Of a stretch of 32,066 nt of DNA, positions 5,661 to 29,819 are shown piece by piece (within the stretch, counting starts at the first letter, position 1; the number at the start of each line of letters is the position of its first letter). The position numbers and the translations under genes are program-made. Source of the DNA: a virus; IMG/VR virus record IMGVR_UViG_3300031578_000215, positions 1 through 32,066 of that record; one strand, written 5' to 3'. Below the pieces are notes generated by a model. That model had not been told where the DNA came from. It searched no databases and was given only the letters and a program-made list of their open reading frames with translations.

Positions 5661-6931
5661 TATTGTCCTCCATGTTTTTGTCTTAATCTGCGAATCACTT
5701 CATCCGGAGAAATTCCAAGTTGTTTAGCTGTATGATCTATATTTTCTTGAGTAGAACCAGGAACATTAGCGAGAATTAAGCCTTTTTTATATTGAAATCC
5801 TTTTTCAAATTTTTCTTCACCTACTATTCCGCCTTTAACTCTTGCTAAAGAACCATCATGATAATGTTGTAAATATTCTTTTAATTTATTCCATCTTTGA
5901 AGAGCAAGTTGAGGATTATTATTTAAAACATTATCAACACCTTGACTCATGTTTGCTACTGCATCAGCTATATATTTTTCTACATATCCTTCTCTTACAG
6001 AAGTAGCCATACTTTGTCTTAATGTATCTGTAATAAATTTATGTGTTTGTTTTGAAAAAGTTTGATAATCATCAAATCTCTTTTTTCTATCTCCTGTTAA
6101 TAATCCTGCTGCATTAGCTGCTTGATCATTTCTAAATGCTAAACCTCCAGCAGTTCCCGAATAAGCCATAACTGGAGAAATATCTTGTTTTTTTATTTCA
6201 GATAAAATCGAACCTGAATATGCAGCCCTATTTCTAGCTGTTTCATCAGATGTTTCTTTTTCTAATTGACTGCCTGTTTGTGCAGCCATTTCGCCAAATT
6301 GTTGTTGTTCTTCAGGTGTTGTATGTGATTGAACGGCTGGAGTTTGAGTTAATGCCGCTGCGACTGGATGTTGAACTGTTTTAGGAGTTTGTAATCCAGT
6401 AGCAGGAGATTGCCCTGCTGCTAATTCTTGACCTGTATCTGTAGTTATACCTAATTGTTCTTTTTCTTGTGGGCTCATTTGAGGCAAAATACTATCTAAA
6501 AAGCTTCTATCTCCAGCTGCTGCTCGTTGTTGAGCTTGTTTTACCATTTGTAATTTAGTCGCTGAAGGAAGATAAGACCATGTTCCTCTTTGTTGTAAAC
6601 TTGCTGTTTGAGCTTTTCTATAAGCTTCACCGGCATCCCAATCTTCTTTTGTAACTTGAAATGGTTGCCCAGTCATCATACTCCTAACTTTTGCTCTATT
6701 TACCGCTAATGCTGGTGCTCCTGTTATTCCAGACATTCCCAATAAAGGATCTTGCGCTTTTGCTTGAGCTAATTGAGCTTGAGCTTGAGTTAATCCTAAT
6801 TTTGCTTGTTCTTCAGGTTGAAGATAAGGCATTAATAAGGATTGTTGTCTTATTTTTTGTGCATGCTCCATTAGACCAGGAATTATTCCTGCTCCTGTTG
6901 CCGCAGCTTGTGGATCAAAAAATATAGCCAT
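5660..6931 (-). CDS. Candidate internal virion/ejection protein, Gln/Ala-rich (423 aa)
   Basis: The ATG at 6931 has a weak AAGGA nine bases upstream. The product is rich in Gln and Ala, with long helical runs (QAQAQLAQAKAQ near residue 50, and a Q/T/P linker at about residues 180-235), then a charged helical C-terminal half. It has no membrane segment or catalytic motif. It is the middle of three consecutive genes between the tail-hub genes and the fibres, the position of gp20 in P22, so a role in DNA ejection is likely but unproven. Confidence 0.7.
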   Translation of the reverse strand: MAIFFDPQAAATGAGIIPGLMEHAQKIRQQSLLMPYLQPEEQAKLGLTQAQAQLAQAKAQDPLLGMSGITGAPALAVNRAKVRSMMTGQPFQVTKEDWDAGEAYRKAQTASLQQRGTWSYLPSATKLQMVKQAQQRAAAGDRSFLDSILPQMSPQEKEQLGITTDTGQELAAGQSPATGLQTPKTVQHPVAAALTQTPAVQSHTTPEEQQQFGEMAAQTGSQLEKETSDETARNRAAYSGSILSEIKKQDISPVMAYSGTAGGLAFRNDQAANAAGLLTGDRKKRFDDYQTFSKQTHKFITDTLRQSMATSVREGYVEKYIADAVANMSQGVDNVLNNNPQLALQRWNKLKEYLQHYHDGSLARVKGGIVGEEKFEKGFQYKKGLILANVPGSTQENIDHTAKQLGISPDEVIRRLRQKHGGQ

Positions 6932-12773: not shown

Positions 12774-13355
12774 TTAATCTCCCCAAAAATTATTAAATCT
12801 ACCAGAAGCAAGCTCAGTATATCTTACTGTGTGCTGGATATTTTTATGTCCAAGATAATGCTGAATACTTCTAGTATCTTGACCATCATTAGCTAATTTA
12901 AATCCTGTTGAGTGTCTTAACATATGAGGATGAAGAGGAAAATTAAATCCTGCTTCTTTACCTGTTTTCATCATAATCTTTCTAAAAGCAGAATCTGAAA
13001 GCGGTGCTTTTTGCTCAGAAATAAATATATATGATTGAGAAGGATACTCTTTCTTTATTTTTTTTAAAGCCCTAATTTCCTTTGCGCTTAAAGGATGAAC
13101 GCTATTTATGCCTTTCTTAAGCCTATTTATATGAATTTTACCTTCTTCCAGATCAATCTGGCCCCATTTTAAATTAATTAATTCAGAAACTCTAAGCGCA
13201 TGTCTATAAGCTAATAAAATCATAGTAGAATTTCTATAACCATTTCTACTTATTTTCCTAGCACATACAATGAGTTTTTCGACTTCATTATAAGTAAGAT
13301 ATTCGCGAACTCGGCGTTCTATATTTTTAAGTTTTTTGGGGGGATTTGTTTTCAT
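12774..13355 (-). CDS. FimB/FimE-like tyrosine recombinase, catalytic domain only (193 aa)
   Basis: All six active-site residues can be seen: R55 (in RVSELI), K80 in the INRLKKG turn, H144 and R147 (HPHMLRHSTG), H170 (YLGHKN) and nucleophile Y179 (RYTELASGRF). Length and the phrases NRLKKG, HPHMLRH and YLGHKNIQHT are like the phase-variation recombinases FimB and FimE (about 200 aa) rather than the usual 350-residue phage integrases. The N-terminal arm-binding and core-binding domains are absent. The start overlaps the previous stop (TAATG). The likely role is integration and excision, or DNA inversion. It lies in an unusual place, between portal and scaffold genes. Confidence 0.9.
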   Translation of the reverse strand: MKTNPPKKLKNIERRVREYLTYNEVEKLIVCARKISRNGYRNSTMILLAYRHALRVSELINLKWGQIDLEEGKIHINRLKKGINSVHPLSAKEIRALKKIKKEYPSQSYIFISEQKAPLSDSAFRKIMMKTGKEAGFNFPLHPHMLRHSTGFKLANDGQDTRSIQHYLGHKNIQHTVRYTELASGRFNNFWGD

Positions 13356-14446: not shown

Positions 14447-14501
14447 TTTTTATCCCCCCTCTAAAATATAACATTATATAATAACTTTCCCGAAAACGAT
14501 C

Positions 14502-14530
14502 ATTATAGCATAACGCATAAGCGAAGTAAA
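14502..14530 (-). promoter_or_regulatory. Promoter of the recombinase operon with operator-like motif
   Basis: On the minus strand TTTACT (14525-14530) and TATAAT (14502-14507) are 17 bp apart, with an extended TGC before the second box. Directly downstream, at the expected start of transcription, is TTTTCGGGAA (14487-14496), which recurs as both arms of the hairpin at 14571-14600. A repressor binding that motif would cover the start site. Confidence 0.6.
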
Positions 14531-14570
14531 ATACTATTGTTTGGGGGTTTTAGGACTGTATAAAAAAAAA

Positions 14571-14600
14571 GATTCCCGAAAATGGTTATTTTCGGGAATC
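14571..14600 (-). terminator. Strong hairpin terminator for leftward transcripts
   Basis: A perfect 13-bp stem (GATTCCCGAAAAT with its complement) closes a four-base loop. On the minus strand it is followed by nine T residues, a classical Rho-independent terminator. It should end transcripts coming from the terminase-portal unit before the recombinase promoter. The arms also contain the operator-like TTTTCGGGAA. Confidence 0.8.
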
Positions 14601-14737: not shown

Positions 14738-14777
14738 AAAAAGTTGGCATTCAGCGCGGCTGAGTGCCAAACTTTTT
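14738..14777. terminator. Bidirectional hairpin terminator
   Basis: The arms AAAAAGTTGGCATTCAG and CTGAGTGCCAAACTTTTT pair with one bulge and one G-T pair around the loop CGCGG. Runs of T follow the stem on both strands, so it can act in either direction. It backs up the 14571-14600 terminator for leftward transcripts. Confidence 0.7.
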
Positions 14778-14783
14778 CGATGC

Positions 14784-14808: not shown

Positions 14809-15027
14809 ATGAAAAATGAAAACATTAAAAGAAAAATCATTCCCGCAGCCCAATGGAATAAATATCATCCTTGGCCACCCAAAGGAGGTCTTCGTTATTT
14901 AATACATAACGCGGAAAAAAATGGTTTTAAGAAGGTAATCCGTCGTGTCGGTAAAACTGTATTACTTGATGAAAAGGCATTTTTTGATTGGGTGGATGAA
15001 CAGAACGAAATTACTAATAATTCATAA
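14809..15027 (+). CDS. Excisionase-like small DNA-binding protein (72 aa)
   Basis: The only plus-strand gene in the left half of the window. The product contains WNKYHPWPPKGGLRYLI, then NGFKKVIRRVGKTVLLDEKA and FFDWVDEQN. This is the pattern of small phage winged-helix proteins in which the Trp-Pro-Pro-Gly-Gly-Leu turn precedes the recognition helix and the VLLDE strand forms the wing. They are often annotated as excisionases or AlpA/MerR-like regulators. It lies opposite the recombinase operon across the control region, which fits a recombination directionality factor. The ribosome site is weak (AGAG). Confidence 0.7.
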   Translation: MKNENIKRKIIPAAQWNKYHPWPPKGGLRYLIHNAEKNGFKKVIRRVGKTVLLDEKAFFDWVDEQNEITNNS

Positions 15028-21884: not shown

Positions 21885-21912
21885 TTGACAAATGTCGCAC
21901 ATGCGATATAAT
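21885..21912 (+). promoter_or_regulatory. Rightward early promoter P1 with palindromic operator
   Basis: TTGACA (21885-21890) and TATAAT (21907-21912) are 16 bp apart. The spacer holds the inverted repeat TCGCACATGCGA (21895-21906), so a bound repressor would sit between the two boxes. It drives the small-gene operon from 21983. GTGCGA recurs in two other promoters of this genome. Confidence 0.8.
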
Positions 21913-24415: not shown

Positions 24416-24458
24416 GCATTTGCACTTATTCTTTATCCATAAAGAATAAGTGCAATGC
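24416..24458 (+). other. Long hairpin closing the early operon
   Basis: GCATTTGCACTTATTCTTTA and its complement (one unpaired T) form a stem of 19 pairs around the loop TCCA. No T tract follows on the plus strand, so it is not a standard terminator. It may protect the mRNA end or be an RNase processing site. Confidence 0.6.
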
Positions 24459-24599
24459 CGCCTATGGTACTAATTAAATAATAATCCATTATATTTTAAT
24501 TAGCCTTATTATATTAAATTATTTTTAATAAAAAAGATACAGACCAAATGCTGAATTTTACGTAAGAAAAAGCTTACAAGATATTTTTTTATATTTCGC
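24459..24599. other. Gene-free, very AT-rich gap before promoter P3
   Basis: Almost pure A/T from 24470 to 24535, with a weak inverted repeat CTAATTAAA/TTTTAATTAG and a small hairpin GTAAG/CTTAC (24562-24577). No gene is seen. It could serve as an upstream promoter element or an easily melted region. Confidence 0.4.
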
Positions 24600-24627
24600 T
24601 TGTGCGACATGATAAATATGATATAAT
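24600..24627 (+). promoter_or_regulatory. Promoter P3 with GTGCGA operator motif
   Basis: TTGTGC (24600-24605) and TATAAT (24622-24627) are 16 bp apart, in the context GATATAATGG. GTGCGAC (24602-24608) covers the -35 box and matches the motif in P1 and P2. The expected start near 24634 falls at the first stem of the structured leader. Confidence 0.65.
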
Positions 24628-24635
24628 GGACGAAT

Positions 24636-24718
24636 AATAAGCGCAGATTTCATGTTTATAACTAAAACATGAAAATACTCCAACGGCACCCTTTCTGCGC
24701 TTATTCTAAAAGGAATAA
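24636..24718 (+). promoter_or_regulatory. Structured mRNA leader with alternative ribosome-site hairpin
   Basis: AATAAGCGCAG (24636-24646) pairs perfectly with CTGCGCTTATT (24695-24705). Inside, TTTCATGTTT (24648-24657) and AAACATGAAA (24665-24674) form a perfect 10-bp hairpin, and a single-stranded part with CTCCAACGGCACCC follows. An alternative hairpin TTATTC-TAAAAG-GAATAA (24701-24718) covers the AAAAGGA ribosome site of the gene at 24721. It uses the same TTATT as the outer stem, so the two folds exclude each other. This is the layout of a translational switch. Confidence 0.7.
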
Positions 24719-24720
24719 TT

Positions 24721-24939
24721 ATGAGCTTAAAAGACTCTATTACAACTAATGAAGCGGCTATACTTGTTAATAAAAATAAACGACACATCCAATATTTGTG
24801 TAAAAACAAATTTATAGATGCTAAAAAATTTAAAACCGGAACCTGGATTTTATCGAAGAAATCTCTTTTAGCTTATTATGAAAATTTAAATCTAGGGAAA
24901 AAAAATGCCGTTACTTTCAGGGAAATTAAAGAAAGTTAG
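24721..24939 (+). CDS. Helix-turn-helix, excisionase-family regulator (72 aa)
   Basis: The protein has the pattern of small MerR/excisionase-type domains: ITTNEAAILVNKNKRHIQYL forms the helix-turn-helix at residues 7-26, followed by the wing KTGTWILSKKSLLAYYEN at about residues 38-55. Such proteins act as excisionases or small transcription regulators. It stands alone behind promoter P3 and a structured leader, so its level appears tightly controlled. It overlaps the start of a broken small gene by 35 bp. Confidence 0.8.
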   Translation: MSLKDSITTNEAAILVNKNKRHIQYLCKNKFIDAKKFKTGTWILSKKSLLAYYENLNLGKKNAVTFREIKES

Positions 24940-25072
24940 ACTAAAAAATATTCAGACAGAAATTTCTGCTGGAAAATAACCTAAACAAGCTGTTGCAATT
25001 GCAAATTCTAAGGCAAGGAGGTCTAAAAATGCAAACCTATCTAAGAAAACCAGAAATCGTAAAAGCCGCTAA
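24905..25072 (+). pseudogene. MPLL-type conserved small phage gene broken by an in-frame TAA
   Basis: The frame begins MPLLSGKLKKVRLKNIQTEI, then SAGK, a TAA stop (24977-24979), and continues in the same frame as PKQAVAIANSKARRSKN to 25072. Intact small phage proteins of this type read straight through this place (AGKxxKQAVAIAxSKA). One base change from a Lys codon AAA would give this TAA. The ribosome site of the next gene lies within the frame. Either the gene is dead or only the N-terminal 24 residues are made. Confidence 0.7.
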
Positions 25073-27199: not shown

Positions 27200-27227
27200 T
27201 TGACGCAGGTGCGATATAATGTATAAT
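27200..27227 (+). promoter_or_regulatory. Promoter P2 with GTGCGA operator motif
   Basis: TTGACG (27200-27205) and TATAAT (27222-27227) are 16 bp apart. GTGCGAT (27209-27215) lies in the spacer, as in P1. It drives the recombination operon beginning at 27265 and faces the repressor gene. Confidence 0.75.
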
Positions 27228-29368: not shown

Positions 29369-29677
29369 ATGTCAGCATTCAGCGAGCTTATTAAAAGTTT
29401 GCCCTCGTGGGAAAAAGAAAGAAGAGAAAAAATCCTTAATGATCCCTCTCATCCACAGTATGAAATAACAAAATATTTTCAAGCAGAAAGAGAGAAAAAT
29501 CAAAAAATATTAGATAAATGGTTTACTAAAGAAGATATAGATTCTCTTTATAGATTAAACAAAAGAATACGATACAATACTGAATATGAAGATATTAAGA
29601 TGGCTTGTAGATGTACTGCATTAATGTTTGAGAAGATTAGCAAAAATAATAGAAGAAAAAACGAACAAAAGAAATAG
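29369..29677 (+). CDS. Hypothetical protein (102 aa)
   Basis: ATG 29369 follows AAGAGGAATTAAT. It begins MSAFSELIKSLPSWEKERRE and is helical and rich in charged residues, with a basic end (KISKNNRRKNEQKK). CRCTALMF near the end holds two cysteines. It belongs to the recombination operon. No family recognised. Confidence 0.7.
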   Translation: MSAFSELIKSLPSWEKERREKILNDPSHPQYEITKYFQAEREKNQKILDKWFTKEDIDSLYRLNKRIRYNTEYEDIKMACRCTALMFEKISKNNRRKNEQKK

Positions 29678-29709
29678 ACAGTAATACGAAAATAACATAT
29701 AATAATTAA

Positions 29710-29803
29710 TGTGTCGAAATCTTTTATTCTAACATAGAAGCCTTAAATAACCATTTATCCATATTTAAGTTTGAAATAAATACACAAGCCAGATTTCGAC
29801 ACA
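29710..29803. mobile_element. 94-bp MITE-like element with 13-bp terminal inverted repeats
   Basis: TGTGTCGAAATCT (29710-29722) and its exact complement (29791-29803) bound 94 bp. The element is flanked by the direct repeat ATTAA (29705-29709 and 29804-29808), like a 5-bp target duplication. Inside is a second stem CTTAAAT/ATTTAAG (29742-29748, 29763-29769). It has no coding capacity and no transposase is in the window. Alternatively the nested stems are a functional RNA fold before the endolysin gene. Confidence 0.5.
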
Positions 29804-29819
29804 ATTAAATACCAAAATT

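Follow-up and report, generated by a model that had tools for sequence, protein, structure and literature searches.

What would the folded RNA between the promoter and the start codon of a small DNA-binding gene do for its phage transcript? The locus lies in IMG/VR virus record IMGVR_UViG_3300031578_000215, positions 1 to 32,066, and "the window" below means this whole stretch of 32,066 bases. The window phage is P22-like: it encodes a P22-type portal, and other genes match a terminase, a major head protein, a head closure protein, RecT, a DnaD/O-like replication protein, an SSB-like protein, RusA, an endolysin, a holin and a spanin. The short tyrosine recombinase that it also encodes (12774-13355; 193 aa, FimB/FimE-like, NF007370 E=1.8e-49) suggests that the phage may be temperate. 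Near the recombinase gene an inverted repeat, TTCCCGAAAACGATCATT/AATGGTTATTTTCGGGAA (14487-14598), encloses or borders a minus-strand promoter and is possibly an invertible promoter or an attachment site. A strong hairpin (14741-14780) stands directly upstream of a 72-aa plus-strand ORF (14809-15027), which by eye has the likeness of an Xis/AlpA-type regulator and has no match in Pfam, NCBIfam or PHROG.

The features of the leader and its surroundings are collected in Table 1. The TTGTGC-16-TATAAT promoter ends at 24627, so that the promoter-to-start spacing rule predicts a start at about 24634. The inner hairpin is stacked directly on the outer stem, and the leader fold has a z of -5.0, with none of 200 shuffles equally stable. 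Its outer stem is the sole perfect inverted repeat in the 32 kb whose arms reach 12 bp or more and whose interior measures 20-66 nt; shuffled windows have 0.33 each. The first-pass annotation had placed the outer stem at 24636-24646 with 24695-24705, which is borne out with one pair more than stated, and the perfect 10-bp inner hairpin that it described is present. The single strand CTCCAACGGCACCC, which it called conserved-looking, fared otherwise: this segment is missing from the leaders of three related phages, and extended into its flank it has no exact match in IMG/VR. We consider the leader very likely to be a genuine control element.

Table 1. Coordinates of the leader, its promoter, the operator-like sites and related features in the window
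Feature	Position	Strand	Remark
Palindrome TCGCTTGTGCGA, operator-like	24596-24607		Overlaps the -35 of the HTH promoter
Palindrome TCGCTTGTGCGA, further copies	21895-21906 and 27203-27214
Palindrome with 1 mismatch	14513-14524		Within the minus-strand promoter at ~14.5 kb
Sigma70-like promoter TTGTGC-16-TATAAT	24600-24627	+	Predicted transcription start ~24634
Outer stem, 5' arm AATAAGCGCAGA	24636-24647	+	Starts ~2 nt past the predicted transcription start
Inner hairpin TTTCATGTTT/AAACATGAAA	24648-24657/24665-24674	+	10 bp, 7-nt loop
Single-stranded C-rich segment ATACTCCAACGGCACCCTT	24675-24693	+	19 nt; sequence not conserved
Outer stem, 3' arm TCTGCGCTTATT	24694-24705	+	Final five bases common to the SD hairpin
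Shine-Dalgarno (SD) hairpin TTATTC/GAATAA	24701-24706/24713-24718	+	Alternative 6-bp fold
Shine-Dalgarno AAAAGG region	24708-24714	+
HTH_17/excisionase-family-like DNA-binding protein, 72 aa	24721-24939	+	HTH_17, phrog_2655
Second start-anchored stem leader, upstream of the endolysin gene	29675-29819	+	Promoter TAGACA-17-TATAAT

The protein encoded behind the leader matches Pfam HTH_17 at E=1.9e-4, below the gathering cut-off, and phrog_2655 (excisionase) at E=7e-6. A RecT search of IMG/VR led to three related phages (L002, L003 and L004) with an orthologue of the gene, and that of L003 passes the cut-offs of both Pfam HTH_17 and the TIGR01764 excisionase family. The window protein is 32% identical to the L002 orthologue and, across its first 49 residues, about 37-41% identical to those of L003 and L004; the relatives' proteins are 87-92% identical to that of L002. 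Since the three relatives are so close to one another, they are counted here as one lineage. When IMG/VR was searched with the HTH protein, the HTH alignment, RecT, the replication protein, the terminase and loop DNA patterns, the gene was found in only these three other phages. A scan of GTDB with RecT returned remote MAGs only; a search of phage GenBank found no DNA match, and Listeria excisionase-like proteins at 35-41%. Three further records were rejected: the pattern match in L014 falls within a gene and is due to chance, L021 was reached through a distant match to the replication protein and showed no HTH orthologue, and L028, with 95% identical DNA, ends before the leader. This last is a 7.7-kb IMG/VR fragment about 95% identical to 15.0-19.4 kb of the window, with the segment matching 14.0-14.3 kb placed in a different order, as in a mosaic relative. 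Around the gene itself, a perfect 17-bp hairpin with a 2-nt loop (24420-24455) lies where the upstream small-gene operon ends, with no U tract after it. The small ORF at 24905-24979 (MPLLSGKLKKV...) reaches a TAA stop where its L002 counterpart (6502-6639, 46 aa) continues, and it looks decayed or truncated.

Each of the three orthologues is preceded by a TTGACA-16-TAGAAT promoter, and from the predicted start runs a stem of 16-17 bp with an inner hairpin inside, followed by a second stem. Both stems taken together with the inner hairpin have 99% of their cells paired, with four compensatory pairs among the three sequences; 4 of 500 shuffles match both this pairing and the four compensatory changes. 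A core inside the first element hardly varies, the leaders have a stretch of conserved loop (AAAAAACAACACAA), and in L004 the second stem has lost its loop. A minus-strand ORF in these leaders (MKVVLFF...) is unlikely to be real; an indel in L003 shifts its frame, and it runs antisense to a conserved plus-strand gene. A dif/Xer site was rejected by eye, the spacer being wrong and the relatives different.

A covariance model was built from the three relatives only, with the window left out. Its best match in the window is 24632-24711 at 18.3 bits, the next reaching 13.9 (E = 0.19 over the 32 kb and 0.048 over the 8-kb early region), and the model brings two parts of the window leader into alignment, its edge on the promoter side and the GCAGA/TCTGC top of its stem, beyond which the window leader and those of the relatives cannot be aligned. 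What they have in common is leader position and architecture, with no loop sequence found in both. This modest evidence suggests that the leaders may share a common origin; it is also possible that they converged on the same form. At the structured start of the HTH mRNA there is probably a genuine, lineage-wide leader RNA.

Two folds compete at the ribosome site of the window. According to the first-pass annotation, both need 24701-24705, and the coordinates of the outer stem and the SD hairpin confirm the overlap. At -3.9 kcal/mol the SD hairpin ranks in the top 2% for stability when 103 likely start regions from the four phages are compared, and only 1.3% of shuffled spacers are as stable. 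At 37 C the complete outer stem has -25.9 kcal/mol, as against -24.5 kcal/mol for the fold in which the SD hairpin forms and the outer stem is shorter; with 1.4 kcal/mol between them, the free leader is already a mixed population in which the SD hairpin pairs with a probability of 0.03-0.36 (up to 0.6 at 20 C). When the lower five bases of the 5' arm were blocked in silico, this probability rose from 0.03-0.36 to 0.73-0.99 and the exposure of the two SD guanines fell from about 0.5-0.6 to 0-0.1. For the SD hairpin to form, only the five pairs at the bottom of the outer stem must open; the seven above them, like the inner hairpin, are present in either fold, so the mutual exclusion is real but local. 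In the relatives the SD region has 0 to -0.6 kcal/mol and forms no SD hairpin, and their stems end upstream of it with no shared bases. The proposed logic, in which a formed outer stem frees the ribosome site and an opened one closes it, therefore survives in part: blocking the stem foot does close the site in silico, while the free leader is mixed, full opening is never needed and the overlap is not conserved. An H-type pseudoknot between the loop and the SD (CCUUU:AAAGG) was rejected by reasoning, since its linker, at about 3 nt, is too short to reach across a 12-bp stem.

The operator-like palindrome places the promoter in a wider set. Its consensus WCGCnnnTGCGA is common to the HTH, early-left (21885) and RecT (27200) promoters, each of the three exact sites overlaps a promoter whose core is TTG...TATAAT at identical spacing, and CGCNNNTGCGA has 4 matches at 3 sites in the window where 0.16 are expected. 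These sites are probably the regulon of one phage repressor, and to judge from their presence in these three promoters the HTH leader would probably be transcribed within that repressor-controlled regulon.

A stem anchored at the predicted start recurs at the endolysin gene. There a 13-bp stem (29710-29722/29791-29803) encloses 68 nt, has its first base at the predicted start and ends 16 nt before the ATG of a gene with no clear Shine-Dalgarno; the z of the fold is -4.95. No such leader was found upstream of the relatives' endolysin genes. When 288 promoter-like sites of the four phages were scanned for stems that begin where transcription is predicted to start, the three relatives' HTH leaders ranked highest, followed by the endolysin leader and the HTH leader of the window. 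All five score higher than 99.9% of 2,400 random positions, a comparison that is partly post hoc since the HTH leaders had been chosen beforehand. A sixth stem flagged by the scan, L004:5453-5546, was discarded as lying inside a coding region, and 235 further promoter-like sites in other stretches gave no such stem.

Of the explanations considered, the most likely, which we put forward tentatively, is that an early transcript under repressor control begins with a structured 5' leader that acts in cis, through mRNA stability and by keeping the SD partly open. Because transcription would start about 2 nt before the 12-bp stem, the new RNA would close its own 5' end. The resulting 70-nt domain, with the outer stem, the inner hairpin on its 5' side and a single strand of about 20 nt on its 3' side, would end 15 nt before the AUG of the HTH gene. 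Such a 5'-terminal stem may shield the HTH mRNA against 5'-end-dependent decay, and its foot, by tying up the 3' arm that could otherwise fold around the SD, would act as an anti-sequestor that leaves the SD partly open. The leader would then work constitutively rather than through a ligand. Against this reading, the relatives number only three, from one lineage, and the window leader aligns with theirs at GCAGA/TCTGC alone; for a plain stabiliser, moreover, their second stem and conserved AAAAAACAACACAA loop would be superfluous.

Next in likelihood, though rather unlikely, is a dual RNA like IsrK or the P4 CI and P1 c4 RNAs, in which termination or processing would release the unit from the transcription start to the stem as a short RNA that works in trans or by attenuation, read-through giving the HTH mRNA. 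The U tract that directly follows the first stem in L003 and L004 resembles an intrinsic terminator, and from it we infer that this stem could also terminate transcription; the near-invariant loop core of the relatives fits the same reading, and the C-rich single strand of the window could pair with ribosome sites. The window stem, however, is followed by CTAAAAGG, with no U tract. The loop is predicted to pair with start regions of the phages or with the flanking transcript no better than shuffled sequence does, the sole low value falling upstream in L002, within a repeat gene that is not at that place in L003 or L004. Less probable again is a regulated two-state switch, where the ribosome site would be shut or set free according to whether a ligand or protein opens the stem foot or holds it. 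The near-equal energies of the two folds, the rarity of the SD hairpin and the in silico closing of a mostly open SD all speak for it. Mutually exclusive folds that would gate expression are seen in silico in the window but in none of the three relatives, which lack both SD hairpin and overlap, and the downstream gene encodes a DNA-binding protein, not a metabolic one. An Rfam search of the leader matched no family, no ligand pocket was found in it, and a ligand-binding core conserved across homologues was likewise not found. Of the earlier idea of a riboswitch or protein-controlled switch, the structured leader is supported; the switch itself is no more than a possibility.

The remaining two explanations come last. 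A DNA-level site for recombination, replication or hairpin extrusion is very unlikely: the inverted repeat does fold on both strands (-23.5 and -26.5 kcal/mol) and the window has a tyrosine recombinase, but the recombinase has no match in the records of L002, L003 and L004 and the stems begin at the predicted transcription start. Furthermore, the four wobbles in the relatives' stems are all G·U on the plus strand and A·C on the other, which points to a plus-strand RNA rather than a DNA site. About as unlikely is a put-like antiterminator, a nascent leader that binds RNA polymerase and suppresses downstream termination. The leader does follow an early-type promoter directly, is about 70 nt long and has its first pair near +3, as in HK022 putL (PMC9378689); the transcript, however, has only about 600 nt before convergent genes, and the long early operons with the same operator-like site have no such leader.

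Most phage regulons have been described through repressors and operators. The cis-acting leader would suggest that one branch of a regulon under operator control has an extra level of regulation by RNA, common to sequence-divergent relatives and perhaps present at a lysis gene too. If the leader is shown to set the level of the HTH protein, the locus lends itself to a compact test of ribosome-site tuning by a stem foot of 5 bp. A bolder proposal, which we regard as unlikely, is a new family of start-anchored leaders before small HTH regulators and, here, the endolysin gene, each with an outer stem around the whole leader, a hairpin on the 5' side and a 3' single strand of about 20 nt, to which a phage or host factor would bind and so gate expression.

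Among known systems, the P1/P7 c4 and P4 CI antisense RNAs are phage leader RNAs of about 70-80 nt from immunity or early regions. The mechanism of P4 CI is summarised in PMC4825925. Unlike these RNAs, the window leader does not match the Rfam c4 model (RF01695), and its unpaired segments find no complementary target in the flanking transcript better than chance, no pairing shared by the phages beating shuffled sequence. Like the window leader, HK022 putL RNA follows immediately on an early promoter with about 70 nt of structured RNA, but put consists of two separate stem-loops of about 70 nt in total that act on RNA polymerase (PMC9378689), whereas the window has one closed stem and the relatives have two, over about 150 nt. 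The first-pass annotation knew of no described phage element with this layout; phage leaders with two folds controlling a ribosome site are nonetheless known, IsrK of Gifsy-1 being an example (PMC4825925). Like the window leader, IsrK-orf45 of this Salmonella prophage has its own promoter and two folds around the ribosome site of a small ORF (PMC4825925). In an IsrK-type dual RNA a terminator yields a short RNA by which the long form is activated in trans; neither a terminator nor a trans partner was found for the window leader. Stabilisation of mRNA by 5'-terminal stem-loops is an established mechanism for ompA, papA and aprE (papers cited in PMC3997798). As summarised there, these leaders too carry a stem a few nt from the transcription start in the 5' UTR of the gene, and the window leader likewise has a stable stem within a few nt of its predicted 5' end; compared with the leaders in that summary, its stem closes almost the entire leader and encloses a second hairpin and a single strand of about 20 nt.
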